Origin: Mesostigma viride | Taxonomy: Eukaryota > Streptophyta > Mesostigmatophyceae > Mesostigmatales > Mesostigmataceae | Assembly: GCA_009746045.1 (NCBI GenBank) | Contig: RPFO01000050.1 | Location: 5,621,277-5,685,276 of the forward strand | Direction of reading: 5' to 3' | Length of the DNA: 64,000 nucleotides | Shown: positions 1,877-62,812 of the stretch, one piece after another | Numbering within the stretch: position 1 is the first letter of the stretch | Layout: every line of letters starts with the position of its first letter | Translations under genes and position numbers: made by a program | The notes under the pieces: model-generated | Databases searched by the model: none | What the model was told of the DNA's origin: nothing | What the model saw: the letters and a program-made list of their open reading frames with translations, nothing else

Positions 1877-3011
<1,135 letters not shown>

Positions 3012-4633
3012 TGTGCCTGGTGGGATGAGCCAGTCCTGTAGCGTCTCCTTGGGCGTTTTGTGTGTAACACCAAATGCGTCGGAAGGCGGAAACGGCTTTT
3101 GCCGACGCCAAGTGATGAGCAGAGCTATGGATTGTTAACCCCACCCGAGAGGGAGCACTGTGAAACTACTGCTAATTTGGCTGCTGGCACGGCATCTGGC
3201 TGTATTCTGGACCTTATGGACATGGTCGCTTGAGACAACGCCATTTTCTATCTTTATATCCATTTCCTCAGCTACCTGCAGCACTAGTTCCCGAACACGT
3301 TGGTCAAAAACTAAAGGACGCCTGTAATAAGAGAAAATAGTAACTACTGATCAACGATGGCCGTTACAGAGTGCGATGTCTGTAATATCATTGTCTTGTA
3401 CTGCCGGTTATTGTAACTCTTCAGTTTTTGAAACTTTATGCCATGCCAGGTGGCGGTGGTGGAGTGAACCTCGGAAACCGAACATCCTTCGGCTCATCGT
3501 TTGCAAACATCGTGCTTGGCTGCCAAGTCCAGTTACTTTTAGTCCGTTTCTGTCAGGTTTCAGACTTTCAGTTCATATTTGCGTGGCGGGAACGGAAGTT
3601 ATTGAACGAATTCTAAAGTTCATAATTATTTGCGACTGTTCCGTGACTGTTCTGGCATCTAGGTAGATGGGATTCGCAATCGGTGATGGGCAGAAGATAT
3701 TTAAGTACTTGGGACTATGAACATACATGCCGGGTGTCTCGTATCGGGGGCGAGTATCCACTTGGCATGAACCAGAAAGCATCAAGTGTACACAAAGTTT
3801 CGCATTTCGTACGGAAATGAAATTTTACTGTGTCTCAGGTTTGGCTCATTGTTTTGGATGGTGCTCACCAAACTGCACGCTCCACATCTTGTTGCGCGAA
3901 CCTGCGTATCTTACAGAACACAGTAAACATCTAGAAGCATCCATCCAGGGACGCCTGCAAAGACGTGCTGGCACGGACGGCGGCGCCTTCCATTAGCTTC
4001 TGGGCAACGGCGCCAGGTGAAGTCCTCCATGGATGCTTCACCTGCGCGCTCCTCGCGCGCACTGCGCAGGCTCGCGCGCCATAAAAGACGTCGATCACCG
4101 ATGAGTACTCAGCCCCCAATGGCCCCATGGCCCAGGCAACGCCTTCAAATCCTGACTTGTAGTTGGTCTGTCAGTGGAATTTGACAATTTTGCATCATTC
4201 TTGGCTCTGAATCCAGCCGTGCTAGCTAGCGATACCTATCCACCCGAAGCACGTTTGGTGTCCCATTTACTACTCGAGAGTCTAGAGAGCCAAGCGTGTT
4301 ACTTGGCCATGCCGGCATGATTTAATCGAGCGTGTAGGTGTCGGTTCACGTTCAACCTTCCCGTTGCTGCACTGGTTGATTCATCGTCTAGTAATCGATT
4401 GATATTACGGCAAGGCAACTGCGCTTGTTACTTTTATATGGCCCGAGTGATGAAAGGCGTGGTTACAAATTGCTTTCCGCACTCGGGTCCAGTGGGCAAG
4501 GTCTACTTCACGTCTGAAAATAGTAAAAAGACCAAGCACTATGTCATCTGCGAGAATGCTTCTGCGTCCAATGGCCTTATGGTGGTTGAGATGATTTCTC
4601 CGTAAACGCACTGTGGCTAATGGTGTGTTAGAA
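3012..4633. other. Divergent intergenic region between SDR and PARP-Deltex genes
   Basis: This is probably the shared upstream region of two divergent genes. I recognise no conserved coding segment. A 68-codon plus-strand open frame at 4399-4605 (first ATG near 4438) has protein-like composition and ends 29 bp before the ATG chosen for the PARP gene. It could be a missed N-terminal exon, an upstream ORF or chance; no convincing donor links it to the next exon. Other short frames at 3376-4128 show no family resemblance. Confidence 0.5.
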
Positions 4634-7600
4634 ATGGGAAAGAGGAAACATCGTCCTACCGTTCTTTTCCCTGTTGTAAACGCCCTGCCACCTCATCTTG
4701 CTCATCTTCAGACAGGGCTGAGCTCTGGTTCGGGCCAGCTGTCGTGGCCATCTTCACAGCAAGATCTACGGGCATGCGGCCCCGGGGATGCAGCGGAGCC
4801 GCCTGTGACGACAAGGAAAATCACGTGGCATGGGAATGACCGGAAGCGGCCACCTCATTGGCAGGGAGGGGATTGCTCCAAACTCTTCGAGCTCATAGAT
4901 TTGCCTACCAGCAGCCTGGAGTATGCCACAATTGCCAGTAAACTGACGGCGGTGGGGCTGCACGTGTCGTCGGTTCGCCGCGTGCAAAATTACGAGCTGT
5001 GGACTCGCTATGCAACCGAGCGGAGTTCCATGCTGCGCGTCAAGACAGGCGGAGCCCCTGTCCCAGGCGCCGAGAAGATGTCAGAATACGATTTGAATCA
5101 GGTACTGTCTTGGACAAGCCATTGGTATCATCAGCATGCCTTTTGAGTAGCAGGCGGCTTCATTGTGATTGCATCGTGCTTAGCGTGGCAAGGTTTGCTT
5201 TCTGATTTTGCTCATTTGCTGTGCTTTTCGACCGCGTTCTTGGATCTGAAAACCTAGACGGTCTTATTTTCATGTTCGCATAGTTTAATCATCTCTAAAG
5301 AGGATGCATGTATTTTCAGATAAATCTAATTTTGCATTCTCAGATAAATTGAAGTTGCAAGTGGTAGAGAAACTTGCGTAGCCATGGTATCTGAGCTTGA
5401 CCACAAGGCCCGCCCATGGCCGCCTTTAGCCAACACGCTATTCTTATATTAGGCTAATGACTGTGAGATTCTGCTGGTGGACTTAGGATTCCAAACGTTT
5501 TGTTGATTTGGTTTTGATTTATTTTTGCTGCGTTTTTTTTTTTCTGTCGCTTCTTCCGTTATGCCGCGGCTTCTTCTCAAATATATTCCATGTCGGCATT
5601 GCCCCCCCGCCTTCCCCCCTTCCAATGTTCTCGGCCTGCTGCGTCACGCCTGCCAGTGCCTCCTCTTCCACTGCAGCAGCGCCAAGGCCGACGTGATCTG
5701 CGCACAGGTACTTAAATAGATGGCCACAAACATGAATCAATGGTCACAAAAGTAGATGGCCACAAACATGAATGAGGCCCTGGCAGTGTGGCTAGGGGGG
5801 GGAGTTCAGGATGTAGTGTTTTGTATGTGTTTGCGTTTCGATGTGATTTACATCTGGAGTGTCACATGGCAGCAGGCACAGGCTATGTAAGTGTTCTGGC
5901 CTGATGAATCACAGAGTGATCTGGACAGGTAGGGATGGTTGATCTCCATGCGCGGCCAATTTTATTTGTTTGCCTATCTTGTTACGAAGTCCTGAGGCCA
6001 TATGCCTTTTGCGCTGGTGCACGAGCGTGGCAACGGATGGTCATTTCCCTCTGCCATATCTTCTTTTTCTTGAGCCATGCCCTGGTCCAGTTGGCCCCTT
6101 CATGGTTTTGCCCACGCTATCGGTTATGGCTCATATTCGCATTTGTTTAGATCTGCAGAGTGAAACCTTTTCTCCTTGAACGAAGCTTTTTCTTTCCTTT
6201 CAAGAAAGGGAAATGGTCCCATTTGTTACCACTGCAGCCTGACCTTTCCCTTGTAAAAACCACTCTGACTTCTCCCTGCAGGGTCTCGATGCGCGGCTTG
6301 CCAATGGGGGCACCTTCGGCCGTGGTACGTCCTATGTACTATCATAACTTTGGTTTGGAGCGGCTATCTAATTGATGCCTGCCAATGTTGTTGCGAAGCA
6401 TGTTGCACGTATACGTTTGCTGTACACATTATGCCGATTTCGTGACTGTGTGTCAAGGGCTTGTGCCCCTGTCCTGCGGCCCTGAGCAGGGTGGGATGCA
6501 TGGAAGTAGTGCCGCGTCCAGTGTAACAATATCTGATTATATTACATTCTCCCTTTTGTGCATTTCTCAGAAATAAACACGCCGCGACCCCAATATGCTT
6601 ATGCATGCCCCTAAACAGTCCGGTACACAGTGTCATGCAGTCCGGTAACGAACAACTGAAGCAAGTGCCCCTAAACAGTAGCAGGCCATGCAAAACAATG
6701 GGAGGGTGAGTTCCTTTAGTTAGTTCCACGTACACTAATTATAAAATGTGTTCCACCATGGGTGCCCCCCCCCCCGGTCCGTCCGTCCGTCCTTACCTTC
6801 CTTGATTCCTGCCCTCCCCAACCTCTCTCCCTTCCCCCTCCCCGTCCCCCCCCCCCCGCCCCCCTCCCTAACCTTCCGTCCTTCCTGCCCTCCACAAACC
6901 AACCTTTCATCCTGCCCCTCACCATTTGTCCTCCCCCCTCCCCCCTCCCCCTCCTCCACAACCACGACCACAAGCACAACCACAACCGCAACCGCAACCG
7001 CAACCGCAACCGCAACCGCAACCGCAACCGCAACCGCAACCACAACCACAAAACACAAAACACAAAACACAAACCACAAAACACAAAACACAAAACACAA
7101 ACCACAACCCATAACACACAACGCACCCCCGCCAGGGATCTACCTGTCGGATGACCCCCGCAAGGCGGCCCAGTACGAGCGCTCCAACACGCACTGCATG
7201 TACGTGTGCGCGGCCGCGCTGGGCGACTGCAAGGCCGTCTCGAGCAACGGCTCCTTTGTGCGCGAGCCCGACAAGGCCCCCCACGAGCGCCGCACGCTGC
7301 TCGACCTCTGCTTCGACTCGATCGTGGGCAACACCGGCTTCAACGAGTATGTGCTCTTCCACAAGGACAAAGTGTGCCCGCTCTACGTGGTCGTCTTCTC
7401 CCATGGCAGTAGCAGCAGCACTAGTAATAACGGCAGCAGCAGCGGCGTGGGCCCAAATTCCGCCAGCAGCTGGGCCGCCACCATGGCGAGCGTGTGGGCC
7501 GGGTGGGGGTTGAATGGGCCCACGTCGACCTCCTACCCACCGGTGTATTTGCCACCCCCGGGGGGGTCCAAGCTGCCCCCCTTTGCGTGGCAGACGCGCG

Positions 7601-10170
7601 CAACTAGCAGCGACCGGGGGCGGGGATGGGCCTGCAGCGGCTCGGGGGGCAGCCGTCATCGACACCCCCATTGGATCCCGGTCTCCTCGTTGGCGTCGTC
7701 TCGGGGCGCAGGCGGCGAGGACGGCACCGGTGCTGTTTCTATCCCCCGCCACCACGAATTCCACCTCTACCTGGAGGACTTCTACGCCATCGTGGCACCC
7801 TGCCCGGCACCAAGGGGGGTTCCATCGCTCGCTGACGTCACCTTGGTCGACAACATGGCCGGCGAGGTGGAAGAGGTCGTGGTGCGGCCACCGAGCAGTC
7901 TGGCAGGTGCATCGCCAGCGACCGTGGCGGCGACAACCGGCTGCAGGTACCAGGGAGGGGCCGCGTCGGCGCCAGCTGTCGCGCCGTCTCTGGCACGGGC
8001 CGCCTCGCTGGCGCGGCCCGCGGTGGTTGATCTCACGGATGATGTTGTCGTGATCGACGATGATGCGGGCGGCGATGGCGCACCCGGGTCAGCGGCGAGG
8101 TGGGCACGGGTCGCCAAGGCTGTCACTGCCTTGTCGGCGACAGTGTCAGGCATGGGTGGAACCACAGGCGTCCAAGCAAGTACTGCGAGGGCAGCCAACG
8201 CCGCCGCCTCTACCACAGGCCTCGCGAGTGCCGCGAACTCGGCAAGCGCCTCCATGAACACCGCACCAGGAAATGTCTCCAGTAGCAGCGCGACACCTGT
8301 ACCGCCTGCACCCATGGGCCACGACGCGCAGGGATGGGGGCACGCGAGCCGCAAGCGTGGCCGGGCCCTACCAGCGTCTGCCAGCATTACCCTGTACGAG
8401 TCGGATGATGATGACATCAGCGTGGGGGCGCGTGTGTCAGCGGGCCATGCGGGCGTGGCTGTCACCGGTGGGGGTGCGGGCGCGGGTTTGGGCACGTTCG
8501 GGCTGCTGGATCCTGCGGGCAAGAGTGCAGGCATGCATGCCTCCGGCGTCATCGCGTCGTTGAGTACTGCCGGCGGCAACACCAGCGATATCGCCGGCAA
8601 CCAAGCCAGCGCGGGTGCCGGAAACAACGCCGGCGTTAGTGCGGCCAAGGACACCAGCACTGGTGCGGTCTTGACAGTGGATCTCACCGCTGATGACGAT
8701 GACGCTGCTGACGGTGACAAGGACGGGAGCAAGCCGGGCAAGGTGGCTGAAAACGTCCGGCGCAGGAATCCCGGTGGCAAGGCGTTTGTGCGCCAGAAGC
8801 GGGGCGGCCGAAAAGTGGCTGCGGCGGGTGCACCGCATGCGGCTGCCTCCCAGGGGACTGGGCCCTCGGGCACCAACACCGTGGGGGGCAGCGCGGCGGT
8901 TACTGGTTCGGCCACCAGCACTAGTCTGTTGGATGGGGGCAGTCATACGGGAAGTGGCAGTCTTTTAGGCGGGGCCGGTCTGTCGAGTGGCGGTCTCACG
9001 GGAGGTGGCAGCCTGATGGGGGCAGGGATTCCTAGTATGGGAGGAGGCTGCTCTAGTGTGGGCGAGGGTGTGGGGGCGGGTACGTCGCTTGCGTCCCTGC
9101 CATTGACGCTGTCGGCAGCAGCGCTGACATCACCATCATCCTCGACGCTGGCATTGGCGGCGGCGGGCATACTGTCAAGTGCACCCACCACCACCAGCAG
9201 GGCACCACTGCAGTCGTCACAGCAGCCAGGGGCACCTGCCAGCAGCAACGGCAAGGGCAAGGCAGCAGTCGGCGTCGCCTCCACCCCCAATGTCCCCCCA
9301 GGCCAGCCAGGGACCCAGTCCGTCGCGAGCTCAGCTGTCGGCCATGGTTCCACCGGGCAGGTAGAGACTACCGTAGCACCAGGGGGGCTGATAGGCGCGC
9401 CGGCGTCGCCGCTGCCGCAGCCGCCCGCGGCTGCGTTTGATTGGCGGGAGCGGCTGCTGCGTGCCGACGAGGCGGGCGGCGCTGATAGTAGCGACGGTGG
9501 TCATGGAGATGCAGCAGCTTCCCACGGCAGCGCCAGCGGCGCGGGCGCCCCCCACCCTGGCAGGGACGTCGGCGGCCCGCGGTGCGCCATCTGCCTGGAC
9601 GCGCTCATCGCCGGGGACCTGGTGATGGAGATGGGGTGCGGCCACGTGGCGGGCCATGTGGGGTGCTGCCGCGAGCTGGTCAGCACGCGCGTGCTGGCGG
9701 ATGGGTCGCAGACTGTGAGCTGCTGCCGCTGCGTCCAGTGCAACCGGTTGTTCGGGACGCGTGTGGGCACGCAGCCGCTATCTGCGCGCATGAACGTTAG
9801 GTTTCCACAAATGTATCTGGGGGGCGCGGCGGCCCCTGGGGCGATCGAGATCACGTACCATGTGCCCTCGGGGGTGGAGGACCCGGACGGGGACAACCCT
9901 GGGGCCCGGTTCACAGGGACGAGTCGCGTGGCCTATCTCCCGAACACGCCGGAGGGCCTGCGGGTGCTGGATTTGCTCAAGCTCGCGTTCCAGCGGCGGC
10001 TCATTTTCAAGGTGGGCACGAGCGTCACGACCGGCATGAGCAACGTGGTGGTGTGGGCGGGGATTCATCACAAGACATCGCCCGCGGGCGGCGCGTCGTG
10101 GTTCGGGTTTCCGGATGATGGGTATTTGGACCGGGTCACCGAGGAGCTGAGGGAGCGAGGCGTCTGCTAG
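4634..10170 (+). CDS. PARP - RING - Deltex C-terminal (DTC) fusion protein
   Basis: Exons 4634-5101, 5657-5707, 6282-6324 and 7136-10170 join with GT-AG introns and matching phases (0, 0, 1) to give about 1198 residues. Residues ~95-275 form a PARP catalytic domain: the YELWTRYATE region, the H-Y-E triad as His161 (LLFHCSS), Tyr190 (GIYLSDD) and Glu258 (NEYVLFHKD). The usual HG[S/T] is HCS here. A disordered Ala/Gly/Ser-rich linker (~290-1000) carries acidic SUMO-interacting-like motifs near 484 (VVDLTDDVVVIDDD) and 699 (VLTVDLTADDDD). A RING finger starts at Cys1004 (CAICLD...GCGHVAGH...CVQC) and runs into a DTC domain with GTQP, YHVPSGVEDPDG, GTSRVAYLPNT and IHHKTS, ending at 1198. Known Deltex RING-DTC proteins are ubiquitin E3 ligases whose DTC binds NAD+/ADP-ribose. 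Start uncertain: ATG 4634 is the first in frame; upstream exons are possible. Confidence 0.87.
6970..7120. repeat. CAACCG hexamer and ACAAAAC-type repeats in PARP-Deltex intron 3
   Basis: About ten CAACCG units, then A/C-rich heptamer-like repeats, run to within 16 bp of the acceptor at 7134-7135. The C-rich tract 6765-6960 precedes them. They keep the exon 4 frame open upstream of the real exon start, so the open frame beginning at 6748 overstates the coding region. Confidence 0.8.
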
Positions 10171-10264: not shown

Positions 10265-10985
10265 GATCGAATATTTTTCGAGGCAACCAGCACACGCTCG
10301 ACATATAACGAGGAATTTATACCATAATTTTCCTGTCAAGTTTGTTGAGATAACTCTTCCTGGACAGACACACTAGATATGCCTGTTGGCGATCCGCTGT
10401 CGAAGTACCATATTGATTGCTCTCGCTCCTTATGTTCTTGGAAATGTGGAGCCAACGACGATTCTGTAGTGTAGCTTTCTGCATGCGAGGCAATAGCTTC
10501 AGAGTGGCGATCAGAGAGCAACCCTGTCAATATACGAGTTCATAGGTGCCTGGAAACGTGCGTGGTTGCCATGCGCTTGGCATGCCTTGTAGCATTGGCC
10601 GGTGGGCATGGTTTCTCGTTGTTTTGGGCTGGCTTATCAAGAGACAACCAAAATATTGGCTTATGGCTCTAATTTGTACATTCAAATACACACATCTACT
10701 TTTTATTCCCTTCTATGGTAGCTTTTGTTAGGAAACTTGTTAATTAGTAGCAGTATAGCGTCATTCTCATCATCAAGGAGACAACCAGCGCAGGCCAGAA
10801 ACATCATGATCAAAAGGTAAACCCAATTTTCAACCGTTATAGACCTGGTAAAGGGAAAATGGAATATCAAGGAGACAACCAGCGCAGGCCAGAAATCGGG
10901 AGAATCCGGACCATGGAAAAGGGAATTAAAATGGAATATGTTGATGTTGTTGACCGGGCAGCTCTTGTCCCATGCCTGTATGCAG
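10265..10985. other. Intergenic stretch with two short retroelement insertions
   Basis: No gene recognised. It holds two fragments of the family whose antisense end is TCAAGGAGACAACCAGCGCA, at 10773-10801 (29 bp, flanked by CATCA on both sides) and 10867-10914 (48 bp, flanked by imperfect direct repeats of an A-rich sequence ending AATGGAATA). Confidence 0.6.
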
Positions 10986-11273
10986 GATTTTGGGATGTTC
11001 TATGTGACACAACTGCCTGAAGATGCAGGGCTTCTGGGACTATCCGTACTCCGCGCCCGCATGATTGACAAGGAGAAATGGGCTGCCATCTGCGATAAGC
11101 ACCTCCCTGAGGGGTATGCTCCTGTTCTCTCCCCACGGGCCCCGCGGCCCGTCGCTAGCCAGGGTAGAAGTCCGCAGGTGGAGGTTATTGGCCCTGAGGA
11201 TAGCCGCTACACTACCGCCTCGTCTGCAATTACAGTAGAGGACAGCTCGGATGAGGATTACATCCCCATCTAG
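10986..11273 (+). CDS. Hypothetical terminal exon, acidic C terminus
   Basis: An open frame of 95 codons follows a plausible acceptor (…tgtatgcag at 10985) and ends with TAG at 11271-11273. The predicted segment includes LPEDAGLLGLSVLRARMIDK, then KWAAICDKHLPEGYAP, a Pro/Arg-rich stretch and a C terminus ITVEDSSDEDYIPI, which resembles a SUMO-interacting or acidic docking motif. I do not recognise a family. It may be the last exon of a gene whose earlier exons are interrupted by the insertions at 10.8 kb, or a non-coding open frame. The only support is its length and its ordered composition. Confidence 0.3.
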   Translation, partial: DFGMFYVTQLPEDAGLLGLSVLRARMIDKEKWAAICDKHLPEGYAPVLSPRAPRPVASQGRSPQVEVIGPEDSRYTTASSAITVEDSSDEDYIPI

Positions 11274-12917: not shown

Positions 12918-15900
12918 ATGGCGCGGCCCATGGGAGGAAAAGGGCGAGGCGGAGGCGCCGCACAATTGGGTCGGGGGAGCGGTGGTGCAACAGCGAAAGG
13001 TAGCAATGACGATGATAAGCGAAAAGTCGTGAAGGGAACTGGTGGCGCTGGTAACAGGGGTTCCGCTGCTTTGAGGGATGCAGGTATGTCAAAGATTCCG
13101 ACCAGGGGCGCTGCCGCCCAGTCTCCTAAATTTCCTGCGAACGCGCCCAAAGGAAAGGGTGGCAATGCGACAAAAGGAAAGGGTGGGGGTGCATTTTCGG
13201 ACGAAAACCGGAAATGGTTGAAGCCCGTCGCTGGGAAGAGGAAGGCTGCACCGGAGAGTGACGAGGAGGATGACGACGACGAGGACGAGGAGGATGAGGA
13301 GGCAGACTTCGGGGAGGAGTTTAGCGAAGGAGATGACGATGATGCTGGAACGGATGACGAAGAAGGTGACGAGGACGAGGACGAGGACGAGGACGATGAA
13401 GAGGACGGCGAAGAAGATGATGAGGATGAGGATGACGACGAGGATGGGAGCGACGAGGATGAAGAGCCTGCCAAAAAACGGTCTGCCAAGGCCAAAGGCC
13501 CCGCTAAGAAAGGGGACCTGTTCGGTGACGCCGACAGCGACGACGATGACGTCAAGGGTTTCGACGACATGATGGACGACTCGGACGACGATGACGACGA
13601 CGATGAGCACGGCTCTGACGAGGACGGAGACGATGATGACGAGGATGATGATGACGATGATGAGGAAGAGCTGGCAATTGAGAAGAAGGCACGGAAGCTG
13701 GACGCCAAGCGTGCGCGCGAGAAGGCGGAGGCGGACGCTGAGCTGGCAACGAACATCAAGGAGACGGAGCGCTTCACGCTGCCAAGTGGACAGGAGATCG
13801 AGGCGGAGACGCTCGCGGGCGCTGACCTGGCGCTCGTCCAGCGGCGCATCAAGGACGTGAGTCGGCTGGCGCGCATTGGGCGTCGTTGGATTAACACGCC
13901 TTGGCCTCTGGACTAGTTTCAGGAGTTCTTGTTGCCATTAACCTTTCTGTTGCCATTTCCATTTGCCTCCCTCCCTTACGTTTCTTCCACCTCCCCTTTT
14001 TTTTTGCATGGTGTTGTGGGTTGTGGGAGATGTATAACGACAGCTGGTCATTACATATCATAAAATTTTTCATCATATCAAATTTGTGCAATTGACCGCC
14101 TCCATTTCTGTCCACAGTCTCTGTTCATCAAACGTTGTGTTTTTATTGATAATCATGTCTTCGTGGCTTGGACAAGAAACATAGTTGGGGGGAAAATGGG
14201 TTAGTACTTGCGACCTGGCTATGTTTATCCTCCCATGCCCATATATTTTATAATCATATATATTGCCCATTCCTAGATGATTTTCATTCCTAGAGAGAGA
14301 TTCCTAGGGGGCTGGCAGGTTTCCGGCCTAATAGGGTAGTTCATGTGTAGTTTGTACTTTTAGCAGCTGGCCATTCTGTGGGCTGGCTCGCACTTCCATG
14401 TTTCTCTAGTTCACTTTCTTTTCCCTCCATTGCTTGGATCATTTGTGTGTTCATTATTGATTAATATATATGATATGTGTAATGTCTAAATAATGTATAT
14501 GATTTATGTAATATTTTGCTTCCCCAGGTCGTGGCGGTGCTGAGCAACCTCAAGCAACTGCGGGAGCCGGGCAAGGCGCGTGCTGACTACGTGGAGCAGC
14601 TGACGCGCGACCTGTGCCAGTATTACGACTACAGCCCGTACCTCATGGAGCAGTTCCTGCAGATGTAAGTATTACTTCTACAGCCCGTACCTCATGGTGC
14701 AGTTCCTGCAGATGCATGCGCTGCTCATGTTGGTAATGATAACGATGCATGGTGGTGACCTGAAGTGGTAAGCCTAGTTGCAGTCATGTGCGTGTACTAC
14801 TACGACCCGTATCTGATGGAGCAGTCCCTGCGGCCTGCAGACGTAAGCGGCGCGCATGATTGCGGTCATTATGATCAAACTGTGGTTTTCGTTATCTTGA
14901 TTATCATGAGTAGTAGAATTTTCGGTCATTGTGACTCTGATGTATTGCTGTGGTGATCTATTGTAGGTTACCATCACACTACCTATGGGTGGTGGGTGTC
15001 CCCCACAGCCGAGAAAGTTTCAATGTTTTCCCTACACATCATCTTCCGTGATGATATCGCCCCACCTCAGTTTACAGACACACACGCATGCACACGCACA
15101 CCAGTACCGGAAATAATTCCAACCAAACCAAACCAAACCAAACCAAACCAAACCAAACCAAACCAAACCAAACCAAACCAAACCAAACCAACGCAGCCCA
15201 GCCCAGCCCAGCCCAGCCCAGCCCAGCCCAGCCCTACCCTACCCTACCCTACCCTACCCTACCCTACCCTACCCTACCCTACCCTACCCTGCCCTACCCT
15301 ACCCTACCCTACCCTACCCTACCCTACCCTACCCTACCCTACCCTACCCTACCCTACCCTACCCTACCCTACCCTACCCTACCCTACCCTACCCTACCCT
15401 ACCCTACCCTACCCTACCCTACCCTACCCTACCTACCCTACCCTACCCTACCCTACCCTACCCTACCCTACCCTACCCTACCCTACCCTACCCTACCCTA
15501 CCCTACCCTACCCTACCCTACCCTACCCTACCCTACCCTACTCTACCCTACCCTACCCTACCCTACCCTACCCTACCCTACCCTACCCTACCCTACCCTA
15601 CCCTACCCTACCCAACCCCAAATTAGATCTAACCACAAGTTAGATTCAACCACAAATCCCCGCACGTGAATCCCTGGCCACTTTGCACACCATAATCAAC
15701 CCATCCATCATGGCAACCCCGCGGCAGGTACGCGATTCATGAAAGACTGAAGGACTGAACTAGGATCCATGCACCACTGGGGATCACCAAACCGTGTGAA
15801 TTATTCCTCGAAACCTATAACCGGTGATCACCAAACCCTAAAATGAATTCCACCCACCACACCCGCATAATCCTGCATGGCCCCACAACCCTAGTAGGAT

Positions 15901-28766: not shown

Positions 28767-39516
<10,750 letters not shown>

Positions 39517-43600: not shown

Positions 43601-45360
43601 CCTAGAATGTATTGAAAACCATATGCCCCTTCCCAGGGATATGTGTTACATATCCTCCCCAAGGAGGTATGTCCTTAATTAATTAATTAATTAATCAATT
43701 AATTAACTAACCCACACACACACACTCACCGCTCTCCTGCCTTTTCCTACCAGGCTCGGTGTTGACCTCTGCAAGGCATGTCTGTCGATCACTATGTGGC
43801 TCGAGCGGATGGCTTCCAAGGCCGGACGCTGAACTGCGCGAGATGTATCGGATCACCACACATTATCCCCCCACATTCACCTTGTCATCTCACCCCCACC
43901 AGGTCGGGCGTTGGCCCTGTGTGAGGCATATTAATGAGCACAATCAACTCCCGCCATCAGCTGTCGTCCCACCCCCACCAGGTTCGACTTTGGCCTCTGC
44001 AAGTCATGTCCGATGGATCGCAACGCGTCTAACCGACCAACACCCCACTCCCCTCCCCCACCAGGTTGGACAGTGACCTCTGCGTGACGTGTTTAATGAA
44101 CACAATGAACCACCCCATTCACCTTGGTTTAATGAACACAATGAACCACCCCATTCACCTCGGTTTAATGAACACAATGAACCACCCCATTCACTTCTTC
44201 ATCCCCTCCCCCACCAGGTTTGACTTCGACCTCTGCGAGATCTGTCGCTCGACGGGCCGTGTGCCCGGGCTGCAGAATTTCGAGGTCATTTCTCTCGGCC
44301 GGCCGCGCAACCGGCGCGCCTCTGGCTGCCGCCAGGTAGCACACGAAGGCGTGCGCTGTGATGGGTGCCAGGAGAGCCCGCTGGTGGGGCCGCGGTTCAA
44401 GTCCCTCGACCGGGACGACTACGACCTGTGCGAGCCGTGCAAGAACCTGCTGGAGATACGGGTGCCCGCCTACCGGCGCGAGGCCTTTGTGCGCATCGAC
44501 AAGCCGCGCCCACAGCCGTGGCAGCAGGCGCAGACCTACGTGCGCTCCCGACTGCCCGCCGATGGCAATGCCCCGTTGACGCCCGGTAGTGACAAGGATG
44601 CCATCGCCACCCCTGCGGCGGTCGAGCGGATCGCTTCCACTAGCGACAAGACGTCCCCGACAACCCTCCCACCGGCGGCCTTTTCCCCGGCAGCCACAGC
44701 CACAACCACAACCCCGGCCCCGGCTGTGCCTGTGCTACCTGCGGTGCCATTGCCGGCACAGTCGCAGCCAGATGCGCCGAGGCCGCCCACGCCTTTGCCG
44801 CAGTTGCCGTCCGCCCCTGCTCTGCTGCATGCCACGCCGGTGGAGCCCAGCGCCGCCCCGACGTCGCAGCCACAGCTGCAACAGGCACAGCCGCTGCCGC
44901 AGCCTCAGGTTCAGCTTCAGCTTCCGGAGGCGTCATCGCCCAAGGTTTCCTCCCTCAAGGCCTCCTCGCCCAAGCTTCCTTGCGGCCAGCAAGCTTCCTT
45001 GGCCAGTGCGGCCAGCCCGGTGCGGCCGGCTTCCGCCGGTGCCCCGGTCGTTGTTGGCGGTGCGGCTGCCCATGGTGGCGGCGGCACGCGCCACCAAGTG
45101 TTCCGCTCGATTGGCCCCCGCCGGCTGATTGATGCGTGCTTTGTGTGCGACGTCAACTACCCGGACGGCAGCCAGGTAAAATACGCAGTGGGTGGTTGAC
45201 CCTCCTGATGTCATTCATTCTGGGTGTGGTGTGTGGCGGGGTGGCCACCCACCAGGGTGTGTGGCGGGGTGGCCCTGCCAATGATGAAATCGCTCATGGT
45301 TCATCGGTGGTCTGAAGGGGCCTTCGTGGCCCCCCAATTGTTTCATGACGGCGTGTTTTT

Positions 45361-45396
<36 letters not shown>

Positions 45397-48300
45397 TGTG
45401 TGCTTGTTTGCTTGTGTGTGTTTTCGTGCAACCAAATCCTGTGGATTCGAGAGTAATACGTAGTTGTCGATGCTCGTTCTTTTGGAAGGGGTCTTCTGCG
45501 TGACTGTATAGGCTGCGCTTGACCAAGGTTACGTGGAGTCCCCTCACTGGGGTGGCGCCAGCTATTACGCCTATTTTTACCTTGGTTTTTCTTCCGCTGA
45601 GCTTGTGCATGAGCATACCCAGATGTATGGCCTGCGCTGGTTGTCCCATTGATACCCCTTGATGACATGCTTCAGTCTTCACCCCTTGATCGTGATCCTG
45701 GTTATGATTTTGAAGGCCTATGTTCCCTTGATGCATCATCCTTGATTATGATGTGCATATGTTTCATCCCTTGCTGGTAGATGCCACCACGCAATGTCCC
45801 AAACAACCACGACCACCAAGTCGCATCTTTGGTGCTTTGCACATGCCCCTAGCGACACCGGCGCACTCGCTTGGATCCCGCACATCCTCCGCACATTCTT
45901 CGCGCTTGGATCGCGCCACTACCAACAACAGCCACCACTGTGTCCTAACAACAACCACCACCACCACCACCGCGTCCTAACAACAACAACAACAACAACA
46001 ACATCAACCGCGTCCCGAACAACAACAACAATAACAACCACCACCACGCAGGTCCCTGTGGGAACGCCCTTCACCAAGGCATGGCGCGTGCGCAACGCGG
46101 GCGTGAACCCTTGGCCCATCACCGCGTGCCTGCTGCAGGTGGGCGGCGATGACATGGCGGCGGTCCTGCCCACCGCCATCACCACCGCCAACGCCACCAC
46201 CATGGATGGCTCCGCATCAGCAAGCATCGCCGCCGATGCGACCGGGTCTCCAACGGATGCCAGCAACAGCCGCGATGGCGACAAGGCCAGCGCTATGGTT
46301 GCCAGCAATAGCCATCTCAGCGCCAGCGGGGCGGCAGCAGCCGCCACCAAGCGGGATTATTCTTGTGTCCCCCCCGGCGCCGAGGTGGAGCTCCGCGTGC
46401 CCATGCGGGCGCCACGTGTCGCCGGCGTGTACGAGAGCTATTTTAAGCTGGCGGCTGGCCGGGGCGGGCCCCTCTTCGGCCACCGCGTGTGGTGCTCAAT
46501 CATCGCGGTGGAGGCCCCGCCGGCGCCGGCCCCTGCGAGGGAGGCGGTGGAGGTGTCGTCTGCGGATGTGCTGGTTGTGGAGGTGCGGGCAGCGGCGGCA
46601 GGGGGGGATGTCACGACCGATGTGGCAGCCGATGCGTCGGTGAGCGGCGGGGAGGGCAGGGTGGTCGGGATCGTGGCCGCGGGGGTCGAGCGGGGCACCA
46701 CATCAGGGGAGAAGGCAATGGAGCGGCCGTCACCGGCGGCTGACGAGGATAAGGGACATGGCAAATCACAGGGAGGCGATGAGGTGATGGAGGAAGCCCA
46801 GGTGACTGAGGGGCAGCTGGTGCCTGCGGTGTCAGCGCCAGAAGTGTCCGCGCCAGCAGTTGTGTCATCCCAAGGAGTGCCGTTGCCAGAAGTGACGCCT
46901 CTGGCCGGTGTCTCGGACAGCGCAGCGTCCAAGCTTGCGGCCATGCTGGGGGAGGCCCTGGCCGCGATGCTGGCGGCGCCCTCTCTGCCCTCTGTGCCCT
47001 CTCTGCCCTCTGCGCCATCCGCGCCCTCGGTTGCGGTCGGTCTGGCGGAGGCAGGGGAGGTGCAACGGATGGATGTGGACACCCCAGCGGGGGCAGAGGC
47101 CCCAGCGCAGGCAGTGGAGGTGGAGGGAGAGGCGGAGGCAGAGGCTCAGGCCGATGCCGGCTTATCTGCGCATGCGCGGAGGGTGGCGGCGTTGGTGGCG
47201 GATGATGAGGACGAGGAGGTCATGGCGTCTCCGGTGGCCGCGACGGGTGTGGTTGGGATCCCAGCGGAGAGGGTGCAGGCGGCCGCGGCGCAGGCGGAGG
47301 CGGCGGCTGCGGGACAGGAGGCGGGGGCTGAGGACGAGCAGGAAGAGGAGGGGGCTGATGAGGGAGGAAAGGATGCTGACGAGGAGGGACGGCAAAAGGA
47401 GGAGGGCGGAGCAGATACCGGGGCGGCCAGCAGCGACTCGGAGTATGTGGACGTGGGCGCAGAGGAGTTGTCCCTGGATGAGCAGGACCAGGCCCTGGGG
47501 CGGCCGCAGCCGGAGCCGGAGCTGGAGTCACCGCAGGCGCAGGCGCGTACGGCAGGTGGGGAGGCAGAGGCATGCGAGGGAATGGAAGGGGAGGAGGCGG
47601 CCGCGGCGGAGACTCGTGGTCAAGAGCGGGAGCAGGCGGTGGTGGTGGAGGGGCTCGCCAATGGCGAGACCTTCGGGGAGGAGGTGGAGGCTGAAGAGCC
47701 AGCGACGCCAGCGGCGGCAGATACGGTCATGGAGGTGGAGGCGGCGGCGGGCTCTGATGAGGGTGCAGGGCCGGTCGAGGTTGCCGCGCAACTGGAGGCG
47801 CCGCGGGTGGCCCCCCTCATCTCGTCGCCGAGTGGTGGGTTTGAGGAGGTGACGGCAGGGGGGGAAAGCAGTGGGAATGGCGCCGGCGAGGTTCCGGTCG
47901 AGGGCAAGGGCGGAGAGTACGCCTGGACAGAGCTTAAGCAGGAGGAGGGCAAGGAGCAGGAGGAAAGGTTAGAGGATCGGGAGGAGGAGGAGGAGGAGAT
48001 TCCTCGGCTGGTTGACACTGGGTCAGAGGACGAGGAGGAGGAGGAGGAGGTCCCTGCGCTGGTTGACTCTGGGTCAGATCATGAGGACGAGGATGATGAG
48101 GCCCCTGGGCTGGTTGGCTCTCGGTCAGAGGATGGGGAGGACGAGGAGGAGGTCCCTAGGCTGGTTGGATCGGGGTTGTCTGAGTCGGGGGCCTACCAGG
48201 ACGTGCTAAGGAAGTTCTGGCGGCTGCGCGGCGAGGATGAGGAGATGGAGGAGGAGAGAAAGGAGGAGGGAAGGGAGGGGGAAAGGGAGGAGGAAGGGGA

Positions 48301-48787
48301 GGAGGGAAGGGAGGAGCAGCAGGAGATGCTTCTCTCGGTTGTCTCCTCTTCGTACGAGCAGCCAGGGAGCCCAAAGGAGCTGCTTGGCAACGAGGAGATC
48401 CTGCCAGCAGCCACGGAGGAGGGGGCGGAGGAGGGGGCACACCCGCAGGGTGTCCAGGCAGGTGGCTCCTCGAAAGGCGAGCAGCCGAGTGAGGTCCGGC
48501 CGTACGCTTCCACCGGCGACCATACTCCCCGTTCGCTGGGCGGCCGCTCCCCCAGCTTCCCCCCCGCGGCATCCTCGCCCAAGGGCCCTCAGGCTGGCGA
48601 GCTATCTGATCAGCATGTCGTCCCAACGTGGACCGCGGTGGACCTGGGCCCCAGCATCGTGCCTGCCCCTGCATCGCCGGTGCGCGGGCAGCGTGGGTAT
48701 GAGACCGATGGCTCCGTCTCGTCGACGTCGGACGACTGGCACCTGTGCGAGGTGCCGGGGGAGGAGGAGATGCGGGCAGGGCGCTGA
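40676..48787 (+). CDS. NBR1: NBR1-type selective autophagy receptor (PB1-ZZ-ZZ-FW)
   Basis: Cargo receptor expected to polymerise, bind cargo and tether it to ATG8. Exons 40676-40840, 41116-41242, 42302-43118, 44218-45175 and 46052-48787 join in phases 0, 1, 2, 0 to give about 1600 residues; the ATG sits in ACCATGG. Residues 1-90 form a PB1 domain with the basic N-terminal patch (FKHSLGEDIRR) and acidic OPCA-like KYLDEDKEP. ZZ fingers are at ~350-380 (CDGC…YKSLDR|FDFDLCEIC) and ~412-448 (CDGC…FKSLDRDDYDLCEPC). The FW (four-tryptophan, NBR1 central) domain spans ~665-842 (VPVGTPFTKAWRVRNAGVNPWP to VWCSIIAVE). The long acidic tail has possible ATG8-interacting motifs YVDV (1154), FEEV (1286) and WTEL (1314). 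No UBA domain is visible, unlike plant and animal NBR1. Two ZZ fingers are also unusual. Confidence 0.92.
41895..42110. repeat. GGGT tetramer array in NBR1 intron 2
   Basis: About 50 GGGT units with a few GGT slips, preceded by poly-G runs at 41748-41768 and 41852-41871. Complement of the CCCA motif at 376-1572 and 16022-16162. Confidence 0.93.
43225..43690. mobile_element. Dispersed repeat copy in NBR1 intron 3
   Basis: Shares diverged blocks with 52382-52660, 52700-52985 and (inverted) 55085-55320: a GCAGAGAG…CTCTCTGC palindrome, 'gctgagacgcc', 'ctagaatgtattgaaaacca' and 'cccagggatatgtg', ending near an ATTA tract. No coding sequence. Probably a non-autonomous element of unknown class. Confidence 0.65.
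43754..44217 (+). repeat. Four tandem copies of the NBR1 exon 4 acceptor edge (ZZ half-finger)
   Basis: The real exon start at 44218 (ccaccag|gtttgacttcgacctctgcg) is preceded by copies starting at 43754, 43903, 43982 and 44065, each after a good pyrimidine-rich CAG acceptor. Splicing to copies 1, 3 or 4 would give LGVDLCKAC, FDFGLCKSC or LDSDLCVTC in the same phase as the functional FDFDLCEIC. Copy 4 stays open through to exon 4. Copy 2 quickly stops. Confidence 0.88.
44091..44198 (+). repeat. 36 bp repeat, three units, between acceptor copies 4 and 5
   Basis: Units of 'tttaatgaacacaatgaacc accccattcacctcgg' repeat three times. Because 36 is a multiple of three, the frame from acceptor copy 4 stays open through them as LMNTMNHPIHLG repeats. 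Confidence 0.88.
45176..46051 (+). other. NBR1 intron 4 with TG tract, retro-fragment and CAA/CCA repeats
   Basis: Contains a TG microsatellite (45363-45393), a fragment near 45627-45655 related to the GGTTGTCTCCTTGA family (tggcctgcgctggttgtccc), and CAA/CCA trinucleotide runs (45945-46045) directly before the acceptor. Confidence 0.7.
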
Positions 48788-49856: not shown

Positions 49857-52166
49857 TAAAAAAAAAAAATTAAATTATAACATGCCTCCGTGGGGAGGTC
49901 ATGTAGCACATATTCCATGATGGATGGGGTGGAGGAAGCCGCGTGGTCGAACTATACTAACGCTAGGCTATCTAGAAAATCCTAACTACACTACTCATCA
50001 AAACGCCTCCTCCGCTTGGGGGGAGGTGGCTTGCCCACAGGGTCGGGCGTGTGCGCCTTGACAATCTTCTTCCACCGCGTCTTGTCCTGCATGACAGTCC
50101 AAAGACGGGAGAGAGAGTGTATGCGGTGCTCAAACTGGGCTGGGACCACTAGGTCGTCCAGCAACATCTGAACGTAGTTGGTGACAGGTTTCCCTACCCT
50201 TTTGGGAATGTCCGCGGGGCCAGGCCAGGTCAGAATATGCCGCCCTGGCTGGCCAAGCCGCTGGGGGCCGGCCAGACCAAGGGTGGTGTCGACCTGGCTA
50301 GTGCGGGCAAGGTGTCCTACAAATGCTATCCTACGCTGCCTAATCTCGTCCGAAACACGAGGCATGCCATGATACAAAGACTCTGATGACGGACGCTCGG
50401 AAAAACCTACGTTAAGGACCTGCCGGAGCATCCTGTAAACTGTGCCGTCGAGCCGAGCTGCCAGTTTGGGTGGGAGGGTCCACGCCTCGGCGCCATACGT
50501 GAGCACCGTGAGGACGAGGACCTTGAAGAGCATGCGTTTGCGGTGCCCGTCCAGGCCCTTCGAGCGCCAGTAAGGTGTGAGCGAACGGAGCTTGGCCCAG
50601 GCGAGGGCGATGCGGGTGTCCACATCGTCGTCGGTGTCAGGAAGCCAGCTCCCCAACAGCTTGAAGCGGTCGCGGAACGGGACCTCCGTCCCGTCGAGCA
50701 GGCGCGGCAGCGGTGGTTTACTGGAGGCCCCTATCACCATCGCCTCAGTCTTGACACTAATCTCCAACCCCACCGCCCGCGCCTCCAGGCCCAGGCAGTC
50801 CAGCCAGGTCTGAATGTGCTCGGGGCTCTCGATGAGGGTGGTATCATCCGCATAAATCAGGTCGGCAAGGCGGTACCCCGGTCTAACCCCGCCGTGCTCT
50901 TTCACGTTAAGGATGTCCAAGCCTGGCTCGAACCCCTTAAGAGCAGTAAAGCGCGCACGTGCCCGGCGCATGACGTGATCCACGACAATAATGAACAGGT
51001 ATGGGGACAGGACACAACCTTGCCACACCCCGTGGTGAAGGGGGAATGGTGGAGTGGTGCCCTCCGCAGTCCGCACTACTGCCTGTGAGCCCTCATACAG
51101 TCGGCGAATGGCAGCAATAAACGCAGGTGGTACCCGATCCAGAGCTAGGATGGCCCAAAGAGCCTCCCAGAGAACCGTGTCAAAGGCCTTGATATAGTCA
51201 ACAAAAATGAAGACCAGCGGCAAACTGTCAGGGGGAAGTCGACGCACCTCCTCCATCAACCGGCGCGCGACAAACACAGCCATGACAGTGTTACGACCAC
51301 TACGGAAACCCATCTGAGACTCACCCAGGTGTGGGTCCAGCGCGGCGCGGAGCCTGTGCAGCATCATGCGCATGAAGACCTTCAGCGCGGCGCTCTGGAG
51401 GCAGACACCCCGGTAGTTGCCGGGGTCAGCAGCAGAGCCCTTCTTGTACAGCATGACGCGGATGGCCGTCTGCCACTCAGCAGGCGGAGGCTCGTCAGAG
51501 AGCAGGACACGGTTGCAGAACGCCAGCAGAAGATCCCTAACCGCCAGATCAGGGGTCTTCAGCAGCTCAGCAGAAAGGTGGTCGGCACCGACCGCTGCAT
51601 CGTACCGCAGGCGAGCAAGGGCGCCGTCCAATTCCTCCAAAGTGAAGGGGGGACAACGTCGTCAGTGGCAAGGCGGCCCTCCTGCAAGGCGGGGACTTGG
51701 TAGTCCGCGGCCGAGGAGGGGGGCGCCGGTGGCGGCGGGGGTCCGGCGACCCCGAGGCGGGCGGCCGTCTCGGGGTGCAGCGGCGGGGGGGGGGCGCGAG
51801 CCCCACCGGTCAAGGAAACATTGTGGGCCAACCAGCGGTCAAGGCTTACCGGCGCCGTGCCGTCCCCCGTATGCTCCACCGGGGTGCGCTGCCGCCGGCC
51901 GCCGAGCCGGTCGAGGTGGTACCACATGTCCTTGCCCTGGTTGCGGGCCTGGCAGGCCTTGGCATCCGCGATGCACTGGGCCGCCTCCGCGTCCTGAGCG
52001 TGCGCGTAGGCCTCCACAAGGGCGGCCTTGAGCGATGGTTTCTGCAGCGGGTCCCGGTTACGCTTGAGGCGGTGCCGGGCGGCCAAGACCTTGGGGTCCT
52101 GGCGGTAGAGCGGGCCGGGGCGGCGGCGGGGCATGACCGGCAGGTGCCGGGCCGCCAGCAACGGGG
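49857..52166 (-). mobile_element. 5'-truncated non-LTR (LINE) retrotransposon with 15 bp target duplication
   Basis: CACATGAGCATAAAT occurs at 49842-49856 and 52167-52181, flanking a 2310 bp segment that encodes reverse transcriptase on the minus strand. The 5' end falls inside coding sequence, so the copy is 5'-truncated. The 3' end (sense strand) finishes …cacggaggcatgttataatt and then a T-rich run instead of poly(A). A 70 bp fragment with the same 3' end lies at 55332-55401. Confidence 0.88.
49991..52166 (-). pseudogene. LINE reverse transcriptase ORF, frameshifted
   Basis: The frame 51640-49991 holds the RT core of a non-LTR retrotransposon: YRGVCLQSAALKVFMRMM, MGFRSGRNTVMA, motif A FIFVDYIKAFDTVLW, motif B GVWQGCVLSPYLF, motif C YADDTTL, then KLLGSWLPDTDDDVDTRI and a C-terminal region with a basic PKRRRR tail. 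The upstream part (52166 to ~51650, including LYRQDPKVLAARHRLKR and WYHLDRLGGRRQ) lies in another frame. The break is a C run near 51648-51653: adding one C would join …TDDVVPP to FTLEELDGAL. No endonuclease domain remains because of 5' truncation. Confidence 0.9.
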
Positions 52167-59584: not shown

Positions 59585-60942
59585 TCATGGCACCTTGATC
59601 AAGTACGTCTTGTCCTGCGAGCCGACCGCGAGCGTGGCACCATCCGGGCTGAACTCCACCATGTGGATCGCCTTGTCCTCATTCAGCCGGCCCACGTACG
59701 CGCCCGTCTTGTAGTTGAGCACGCGCACCTCATTCGAGTCGCTCCCGCCGGCCGCCACCAGGTCGGCCGAGGGCCCCCGCCCGAGCTTTGCTGAGTAGAT
59801 GAAGCAGGCGCGCGTCGGGTCGACCTGGGGGAAGGGGATGTTCTGGACCAGCTTCCCGGTGGCATAGTCCCACAGCTGGAGCGGGTCCTCGCGCCGCCAG
59901 GAGCCTGAGGAGGGGGGGGGGGGGCAGTGGGGTGTTGTGGGTGACAAGTGCGATGTTGCGGAATCAAATAGCCAGCGACGAATTGCTCATAAGTGCGCCA
60001 AATAGCCAGTGGGGTCTTGCGCATAATCCAGTCCAATAGCCAGTGGGGTCTTGCACATAATCCAGTCCAATAGCCAGTGGGGTCTTGCACATAATCCAGT
60101 CCAATAGCCAGTGGGGTCTTGCACATAATCCAGTCCAATAGCCAGTGGGGTCTTGCACATAATCCAGTCCAATAGCCAGTGGGGTCTTGCGCATAATCCA
60201 GTCCAATAGCCAGTGGGGTCTTGCGCATAATCCAGTCCAATAGCCAGTGGGGTCTTGCGCATAATCCAGTCCAATAGCCAGTGGGGTCTTGCGCGGAAGC
60301 GAATCAAATAATCATCCACTGTGAATGGACGAATATGGATTATATGGATTCATGATAGAAACACCCAGTGGTATGCAAGATCATTAAGGCCACTCTCACA
60401 CTTGGTCCTGGAACCAATCTTTTTTTAGGGGTACGACCTATTTTCGGAAGTTCCTCTCACGCTTGGCCGAAATTCACCCTACTTCCGCTCCGTCCTCTCA
60501 CGCTTGGCCGAAATAGATTCCTAATCCCAAATTGGATCGTCGCGGCGCCCTGCTGTTTGGCTGGGCGGCACCAATTTGGGCTTGTCCCAGCCCAGGCTTG
60601 GGACAAGGACGAAATTGGTAACTAGGACTGCTCTGAGCGTGTACTGAACAAAGTCGTGCGTCCTGCGGAATGTAGCGTACCAAGTACGTACTTTTGAGTC
60701 CGATGTACTAAGTTTATGTTCAGCTGCGCATGTCTTTCCCACGCATGCCGTAGCTTCACGACAACAAGTTGTGGAAACGGACCCGAAAATGGGATTCGGT
60801 CACCCGGAATAGGCTACGGAGAAGGTGCTTGTCCCAAGCACCGAAAGAACCTGGGACAAGTTGGGGACGGATCCGAAAAAACAATAGGTTCCGGGCCCTC
60901 AAGCGTGAGAGTGGCCTAAAAACCTACTACTATGTATATAAC

Positions 60943-61006
<64 letters not shown>

Positions 61007-62812
61007 GAACAAAGAGCGCGCAGTTGCCAAAATGTTGTTTGAACAGCCCATGCGGTTACCCGAGAAAAAATAAGATCGAGGAAAAAATGACACAGCCAGT
61101 GGGCTTGCCCATCGGTTTACAATACAACCAGATCGGTGCTGCGTAACAGTAATCAAGCAGCCAGCGTGGTTGCCATTCATCTATTCCACAACCAGTCCTC
61201 AACCATTGGTCGATTGTGCATCGCCCATGCAGTGCGGCCGATGACGAGCGTGGCAGTTGGCACATGCCAGGGCGTCAATCATAAGGCCGCGGCTAACTAA
61301 ACATGGGGGAGGGGAGGGGGGAGGGGGAGAGATGTGAGATGGCTTGCATGTGACGGCTTAGATGGATAGATGCGATTGCCTAGACCCGAATCAGCGTTCT
61401 TAGGACTTACCCCTCGCGCGTTCTTATAAGTTTGATAGCACCGCCTATACCAACACCTGTGACCACGAGTATGGGGTATTCCTCGCGCACTATCTCCTAC
61501 GTCCACAATTCCACCATGTATCTGTCTAATCACGTACTATTCCTTAAGGGCATATGTATCTATATAAGAATGTACCATTACTTTCCAAAGCACATACCAC
61601 ATCCATAGCTCTACCACTTGTCTAGAGAATTCCTAGGGTTGCAGATACCGCATTCTAATTCTGTCACGCTCACGCTCCTGTGGTATCTAAACAAATCCAC
61701 CTTTCAGCACCACCATAGCACGCGCAACAGCGACTGGCCACGCGCCACATGTTCTCTGCTAGAGCAAACAAGAAGATTGACAATGCCTCCACAATGTGAA
61801 GACTATAGCTTCCCAAGGAGACCCCTATGGGGCTGGACAGGGGCGCTTGGAGCGATTAGAATCATTAGATTCCCATGTATAGAACATGATGACACTTAGA
61901 AAGACTGTTAACATGAAACTTGGTGTCCCTACATCACTGGAGGTAAATTTTCGGTCGTCAAGCCATACCTGTGAGGACGGTGTTGCCCCGGACATCCAGC
62001 GCATCGCCGCAGATGTGCGGCCCAAAAATGCTCCGCACCGAGTAGCCCACGCGCGTGTCCCAAATTTGGATCGTGTTGTCCCAACCGGCGCTCATCACAA
62101 CGTTGGCGTCTGTGGGGTGGAACCGGACCGCGAACACGCGGTTCGAGTGGCCCGTCGTGATCTCGCCCTGGATCGAGCTGTCGTTGCCGTGCTCCAGGGT
62201 CACCGTCAACTTTTTGGTCGCCTCGTCGTACACCCTGACTTTGCAATCCCTGCCGCCCGACGCGAACAGCGCCCCGTCGGGACGGTAATCCATCGCGTAA
62301 ATGTGGTTACCCTCCTCGTGAATGCTCGCCATTTTCTTCCCGGACGTCGCGTGCCACTGCTCCAGGTCGCCGTGGGCATTCCCGCGCATGAGCACGTGGC
62401 GGGTGGTGGACGAGCCAGCAACCTCGGGCCGAAATGCCAGGGTTGTACACGGGAGGTGCTCATTATGGAAATCCTTACCAAACACGTGAGCAATCTGCCC
62501 ACTAGAGACATGGATTAGCTGGACACCGCCCTCCAACAAACCACTCGCTAGATAATCTCCGTCCGGAGAGAAGCGCGCGCAAAACGGCTCCTCTTCCTGG
62601 GGTATTGTAGCCCGCGGCTGCAAGGGTGCCGCGCCTCTCAGTTTTTCGAGTTCTCGCAGCGCCATTGGATCCTCTTTGCGTGGCGCCATTGCCATGGATC
62701 CGGCACTTTGATGATGCTGCAGGAGCTCCCGGCTAATTCTTTGAGTCGGAACTTCTACATATTGTCCTCCTTCTCCGTCATCCATCCCCGAATCATCCTC
62801 TGGGTCATCCAT
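59585..62812 (-). CDS. WD40-repeat protein
   Basis: Two exons, 62812-61969 and 59904-59585, joined in phase 1 across a 2064 bp GT-AG intron, encode 387 residues. An acidic N terminus (MDDPEDDSGMDDGEGG) precedes WD repeats from about 85, with blades ending at or near LIHVSSG, EQWHATSG, RVYDEATKK, IQIWDTR, LQLWDYATGK, VRVLNYKTG and TYLIKVP. The whole second half would make a seven-bladed propeller. The GPHICGDALDVRGNTVLTGS and NPLQ/DPLQLWD region looks like a conserved protist family, but I cannot name an orthologue or role. WD40 proteins usually act as scaffolds. The gene diverges from the coiled-coil gene at 63800. Confidence 0.9.
60001..60297. repeat. 34 bp minisatellite, about nine units, in the WD40 intron
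   Basis: Units 'aatagccagtggggtcttgc' + '(a/g)cataatccagtcc' recur every 34 bp with almost no variation except an A/G alternation (gcacat in the middle, gcgcat at the ends), a sign of recent homogenisation. Confidence 0.93.
60940..61003. repeat. ATT trinucleotide microsatellite
   Basis: About 20 ATT units in the WD40 intron. Confidence 0.93.

Follow-up and report, generated by a model that had tools for sequence, protein, structure and literature searches.

A 64-kb stretch of Mesostigma viride DNA (64,000 nucleotides of contig RPFO01000050.1, assembly GCA_009746045.1, positions 5,621,277 to 5,685,276 of the forward strand; hereafter the window) carries a four-exon gene in which a PARP domain, a long linker, and a C-terminal RING and Deltex C-terminal domain (DTC) follow one another. 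The reading that we favour, at a probability of roughly 0.6, is that this one gene encodes a PARP12-like ADP-ribosyltransferase domain, a long flexible linker with SUMO-interacting-like (SIM-like) motifs and a Deltex RING-DTC module. Observed at the sequence level are the domains, the order in which they stand, the open frame that joins them and their conserved residues; the gene is most likely a real PARP-Deltex fusion, made of known modules throughout that are joined in a new architecture.

Gene structure

The gene was re-spliced from the window by inspection of motifs and splice sites. It lies on the + strand, consists of exons at 4634-5101, 5657-5707, 6282-6324 and 7136-10170, and encodes 1198 amino acids followed by a TAG stop. 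Exon 1 contains the start codon, a basic N-terminus and the N-terminal part of the PARP domain with an RVQN motif, exon 2 an LFHC segment carrying the triad His161 (5669-5671) and then Cys162, and exon 3 a further PARP segment, GLDARLANGGTFGRG. The remaining PARP part with Tyr190 and Glu258, the linker, the RING and the DTC all lie in exon 4, in a single frame that ends at the stop codon. A first-pass annotation of this DNA had described a spliced frame of 1198 residues with His161, Tyr190, Glu258 and Cys1004, and re-splicing returned the same positions; its further statement that the last exon runs from Tyr190 and Glu258 to the DTC without a stop was borne out by an exon 4 frame that is open throughout.

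All three introns have GT-AG borders, with donors CAG/GTACTG, CAG/GTACTT and GTG/GTACGT (the slash marks the exon end) and acceptors ending in GCCAG, TGCAG and GCCAG. No AG occurs in the 168 bases that precede the acceptor AG of intron 1 (the AGs start at 5485 and 5655). An alternative start of exon 2 was ruled out, the sole AG starting between 5486 and 5674 being that at 5655. The GC content is 45-53% in the introns and 57-73% in the exons, and the introns contain stops in all three frames. The joins are further supported by the alignment with PARP12, since it (residues 85-276) runs across all four exons. No second copy of the PARP part, the linker or the RING-DTC was found elsewhere in the window at E values up to 1; an Rfam search of the window yielded no match at the gathering score, and an NCBIfam search of exon 4 none at E 0.1.

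The PARP domain

The Pfam search (hmmscan) placed a PARP domain (PF00644) at residues 107-227, with an E value of 3.1e-13 and a score of 50.1 bits, above the cut-off of 26.7. A comparison of this part with solved structures returned 22 distinct sequences at E 0.001 or better, with PARP12 ranking first (4.5e-14), followed by PARP15, PARP14 and, as weak matches, ZC3HAV1 (PARP13) and tankyrase-2. The triad positions are in register in the PARP12 alignment, where His161, Tyr190 (7141-7143) and Glu258 (7345-7347) stand opposite H, Y and I of PARP12, and downstream of the triad His the gaps between the two proteins do not exceed three residues. A Glu at the third triad place allows polymer formation without proving it.

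The RING-DTC module

The DTC (PF18102) was found at residues 1065-1197 (9766-10164) by Pfam, with an E value of 1.5e-43 and 148.6 bits against a cut-off of 25, as well as by alignment with DTX proteins. When the C-terminal 206 residues were compared with solved structures, DTX2 (3.4e-35), DTX1 (9.7e-34) and DTX3L (4.7e-31) were the only distinct sequences that matched at E 0.001 or better. Directly N-terminal to the DTC sits the RING (9583-9741), which presents the ligand pattern C-x2-C-x14-C-x-H-x3-H-x2-C-x21-C-x2-C; the eight putative zinc ligands, by our own assignment, are C1004, C1007, C1022, H1024, H1028, C1031, C1053 and C1056. DTX2 aligned along the entire RING, starting at the first CxxC, and DTX1 along the second half of it; the DTX3L structure begins after the RING.

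We placed the DTC counterparts of known DTX residues through the spacing of DTX2 582/594/608 and DTX3L 707/719/733 on the aligned sequence. By this spacing, His1165 (10066-10068) corresponds to DTX2 His582 and DTX3L His707, Phe1177 (10102-10104) to DTX2 His594 and DTX3L Tyr719, and Glu1191 (10144-10146) to DTX2 Glu608 and DTX3L Glu733. Both DTX2 catalytic counterparts, His1165 and Glu1191, are kept. Zhu et al. 2022 (PMC7615817) report that mutants of DTX2 His582 and Glu608 are impaired in NAD+ ubiquitylation and that DTX proteins share the two residues. The linchpin position, which directly follows the final RING Cys, is Asn1057 here; DTX1, DTX2 and DTX4 have Lys there, DTX3L has Gln and DTX3 has Gly (PMC7615817).

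The DTC lacks the AR insertion (FT--GTSR, compared with FTARGFPR in DTX1 and DTX2 and YP--GIQR in DTX3L), a motif that is found in DTX1, DTX2 and DTX4 and that DTX3L and DTX3 do not have (PMC11460948). RINGs with two His (RING-H2) belong to DTX1, DTX2 and DTX4, and the single-His RING-HC to DTX3 and DTX3L (PMC8424196). Judged by these features, the DTC resembles that of DTX3L and the RING with its two His does not. Membership in the DTX3/DTX3L subgroup was considered and dropped for the RING, which has two His instead of the single one of RING-HC; Phe1177 stands at the place of Tyr719.

Ubiquitylation of single-stranded nucleic acid requires DTX3L His707, Tyr719 and Glu733 and, of the five human DTX proteins, is carried out only by DTX3L and, to a lesser degree, DTX3 (eLife 2024, PMC11460948). 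Swaps of RING and DTC between DTX2 and DTX3L abolish the ubiquitylation of single-stranded DNA, whereas that of biotin-NAD+ remains (PMC11460948). Because only the latter reaction is spared by such swaps, we predict NAD+/ADP-ribose ubiquitylation, and not necessarily the nucleic-acid reaction, for this RING-DTC. A predicted structure of the RING-DTC together with two bacterial relatives (see below) had a mean predicted local distance difference test score (pLDDT) of 47.7, too low for use.

The linker

Between these domains extends an Ala/Gly/Ser-rich linker (residues 279-1003; 7408-9582). Over 7412-9583 (2172 bases) the coding frame contains no stop, compared with 13 and 26 in the other frames; order-2 simulations of the linker had a mean of 12.9 stops and a minimum of 3, none of the 2000 being stop-free. 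Likewise, RNY codons (R, purine; Y, pyrimidine) amount to 41.5% in frame versus 12.2% and 26.1% in the other frames. Given the absence of stops relative to the simulations and the RNY bias, the linker is almost surely coding in this frame, and the PARP and DTC ends share one open frame. We infer that this frame is translated as one chain. Third-position GC in exon 4 is 65-78% in the linker, 93% in the PARP part and 86% in the DTC part, and the lower value of the linker fits a weakly constrained, low-complexity sequence. The linker also contains a weak repeat, a 15-mer in 2.1 copies (score 44); exon 4 has no tandem repeat scoring 50 or more.

Two SIM-like clusters of the linker pass a strict rule. 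In the pair VDLTDDVVVIDDD (residues 485-497; 8026-8064) VVVIDDD alone passes it, the VDLT at 485 being a further weak candidate outside the rule, and the second cluster is VDLTADDDD (residues 702-710; 8677-8703). A weaker stretch, ITLYESDDDD (residues 605-614; 8386-8415), falls outside the rule. Shuffled linkers had a mean of 0.018 strict clusters, and two or more appeared in 1 of 5000 shuffles, with patterns that were drawn up after the motifs had been seen. The recruitment by SUMO through VDLT-type motifs that the first-pass annotation had put forward takes its support from these motifs and stays a candidate function. Basic stretches occur at residues 3-5, 70-72, 593-595 and 729-731, and from these clusters the protein is probably nuclear.

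Alternative readings

Several observations weigh against the fusion as we read it. In the PARP half, the PF00644 match spans only profile positions 21-129 of 199, an 11-residue insertion relative to PARP12 immediately precedes the triad His, and Cys162 replaces the Gly of the PARP 'HG' motif, which is kept in PARP12 and reads H-C here; Pfam detected no WWE or macrodomain in the protein at E values up to 1. As to the RING-DTC, a domain search for PF00644, PF18102 and a RING, proposed in the first-pass annotation as a check, returned PARP and DTC above the Pfam cut-offs, but the RING stayed below its own although its ligands are present (zf-RING_11, E 0.007 when the complete protein was searched; E 0.00096 and 19.2 bits against a cut-off of 27 for the isolated C-terminal part). 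Moreover, the His-His spacing in the RING is x3 instead of the x2 of DTX2, and the Pro of the DTX2 C-P-x-C is absent. Finally, a Kozak-like in-frame ATG at 7483 could split the two halves and give rise to a PARP-less form.

Of these, the points that bear on PARP activity constitute the chief doubt. Active PARPs almost always carry a Gly directly behind the triad His, and activity is not assured, since Cys162 stands where that Gly would be. It is conceivable, and in our estimation unlikely without being far-fetched, that the fusion is encoded but that its PARP half is degenerate, a non-catalytic binder of NAD+ or ADP-ribose with the RING-DTC ligase as the working part. Cys162 and the incomplete coverage of the profile agree with such a protein, and PARP9, which lacks activity and is bound to a Deltex ligase, offers a precedent (PMC12687431, PMC13224862). 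On the other hand, H161, Y190 and E258 fully occupy the triad, the Glu is the catalytic residue described as needed for polymer formation in an account of PARP14 (PMC13224862), and the PARP12 alignment keeps its gaps short from the triad His on.

We consider it improbable that the locus makes two products, one the full-length chain and the other a truncated RING-DTC protein started at ATG 7483, or that the truncated form predominates, either of which would leave writer and ligase largely separate. The ATG (Met304, 7483-7485) lies in the context GCCACCATGG directly past the PARP domain, where it may serve as an internal start, but the frame from the PARP domain into the linker is unbroken, with exon-like GC and zero stops. 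That a PARP gene was joined to an unrelated Deltex gene by an error of assembly or annotation is very hard to credit. Repeats do adjoin the gene, including tandem repeats in intron 3 at 6956-7122, but this intron is bridged by the PARP domain, and exon 4 alone holds Tyr190, Glu258 and the DTC in one frame, along which the coding bias does not break off, and is free of tandem repeats scoring 50 or more.

A possible mechanism and its meaning

We believe that a writer and a ligase tethered in a single-chain PARP-Deltex fusion would be the most economical explanation of these features. In such a protein, the PARP domain would modify either a target or its own protein with ADP-ribose, the tethered DTC would then hold that ADP-ribose (or NAD+) while the RING brings the ubiquitin-charged E2, and His1165 and Glu1191 would activate the 3'-hydroxyl onto which ubiquitin is passed. 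With about 725 residues, the linker may be long enough to bring the DTC to ADP-ribose attached to its own chain or to a shared target; the SIM-like motifs would bring the protein to SUMO-rich sites, and the basic stretches would suit a nuclear location. A more demanding proposal, which we put forward tentatively and as one that may well prove wrong, is that a single polypeptide both attaches ADP-ribose to (SUMO-marked) targets and ubiquitylates it, so that the hybrid ADP-ribosyl-ubiquitin mark would arise in cis. The first-pass annotation had suggested that writer, reader and ligase act in cis, which stays a candidate mechanism, given that the PARP HG motif reads H-C.

PARP7 with DTX2 makes this hybrid mark, and the same has been proposed for PARP14 with DTX3L (2025 review, PMC12687431). 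A PARP-Deltex fusion would be functionally sensible because these proteins pair for the mark. Human PARPs and Deltex ligases are separate proteins that meet through complexes, and what ADP-ribosyl-ubiquitin does in biology is still under study. That writer and ligase are fused in a natural gene speaks, as circumstantial evidence, for a coupling of the two reactions by evolution, and the gene offers a one-protein system for testing PARP-Deltex coupling. If its PARP half is active, the protein would be a one-protein source of the hybrid mark; if inactive, it would resemble PARP9 and a Deltex ligase in one chain. Should the relay be true, PARP-Deltex pairs would have a natural 'Rosetta stone' in this fusion, which, if the organism is not an animal, would also place the hybrid mark outside animals.

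Comparison with known systems

The literature searched, which covered few subscription papers and did not extend to protein databases, described no PARP-RING-DTC protein, in agreement with the first-pass statement that no characterised protein of the full architecture was known. The closest comparison is offered by human DTX3L-PARP9 (with PARP14), where a PARP-type domain and a RING-DTC work together; the DTC of DTX3L likewise keeps the catalytic His and Glu and lacks the AR insertion. However, PARP14, PARP9 and DTX3L are separate proteins that associate, and PARP9 is inactive (2025 and 2026 reviews, PMC12687431, PMC13224862). These human proteins also have KH, RRM and macrodomains (PMC13224862), none of which was found here, and DTX3L differs in Tyr719 (Phe1177 here) and in its single-His RING-HC (PMC8424196; two His here). 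The PARP9/DTX3L comparison drawn in the first-pass annotation was apt, but as PARP9 is described as lacking catalytic activity, PARP7/DTX2 or, as proposed, PARP14/DTX3L would be a better analogue of an active writer.

DTX1, DTX2 and DTX4 resemble this protein in the two His of their RING-H2, DTX2 being the best structure match, and differ in the AR motif of the DTC (PMC11460948) and in their WWE domains (PMC12687431), neither of which was found here. PARP12, one of the clade 3 PARPs, is the best PDB match for the catalytic domain, but it has Ile at the triad Glu position, Gly after the His, and a zinc finger and WWE ahead of the PARP domain (PMC4245714), and it lacks a C-terminal RING-DTC. PARPs that share a protein with a ubiquitin-conjugation domain are known from the PARP6/8 type with UBCc (E2) in fungi, moss and Chlamydomonas and from a Dictyostelium PARP with an N-terminal U-box (PMC4245714, PMC2964712); in contrast to the present gene, these carry an E2-like or U-box domain and not a RING-DTC. 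When 577 PARPs from 175 plant species were surveyed, three clades were recognised, with members in only a few algae (PMC12785305).

In SUMO-targeted ubiquitin ligases of the RNF4 type, as in the sequence patterns found here, SIM-like motifs lie upstream of a C-terminal RING module. RNF4 is not known to have a PARP domain or a DTC.

Relatives in other genomes

We scanned contigs for RING-DTC relatives with a few short peptide patterns, by which distant relatives are missed. Within this scope, none of the 2, 28 and 27 pattern-matched stretches of viral contigs was confirmed, nor any of 37 in one scan of bacterial and archaeal contigs; a second scan of the latter gave a DTX alignment for 2 of 43, both of them DTC genes in Endozoicomonas, a genus known as a coral symbiont. 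Plasmid and phage records contained no RING-DTC match at E 1e-5.

The first of the two, in Endozoicomonas cretensis (OODV01000002.1, L001:5340-8459), is an open reading frame (ORF) of 1040 amino acids in which two Macro stretches (PF01661) are combined with a DTC at the C-terminus (PF18102, E 7.3e-53). Its DTC shows GTSR and FG features as in the present gene, is 51% identical to it in the best segment and is likewise joined to ADP-ribose-linked domains, but the protein is bacterial, has macrodomains in place of PARP and contains no RING that we could find. The second, in Endozoicomonas elysicola (NZ_JOJP01000001.1, L002:7908-8465), has a DTC at E 2.7e-40; an overlapping ORF just upstream (6955-7950) had no Pfam match at E 0.5. 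Neither PARP nor RING was detected by Pfam at E 0.5 in either Endozoicomonas DTC ORF.

Other features of the window

Just downstream of the gene, a 150-amino-acid ORF on the + strand (10821-11270), with no Pfam match at E 0.01, ends in SIM-like acidic stretches (VEVIGPEDS and ITVEDSSDEDYIPI). Two further + strand ORFs, at 44033-45196 and 45752-48784, contain a ZZ zinc finger (PF00569) and an NBR1 Ig-like domain (PF16158) and are perhaps pieces of one gene for an NBR1-type selective-autophagy receptor. The - strand carries a reverse transcriptase ORF at 49994-51661 (PF00078, E 5e-24), likely from a retroelement, and a WD40-repeat ORF at 61961-62839, for which the best specific profile was the THOC3 beta-propeller (E 4.1e-24, under the family cut-off). 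A short-chain dehydrogenase ORF (PF00106), also on the - strand at 2271-3134, has a frame that extends into a 168-base (GA)n array at 2576-2743, perhaps an intron repeat or a sign of a decayed gene. Very long tandem arrays occupy 376-1566, 15232-15618, 37695-38620 and 60001-60294, and their units are CACC (about 304 copies), CCCTA (about 78), CGGGG (about 188) and a 34-mer (8.6 copies at 99%).

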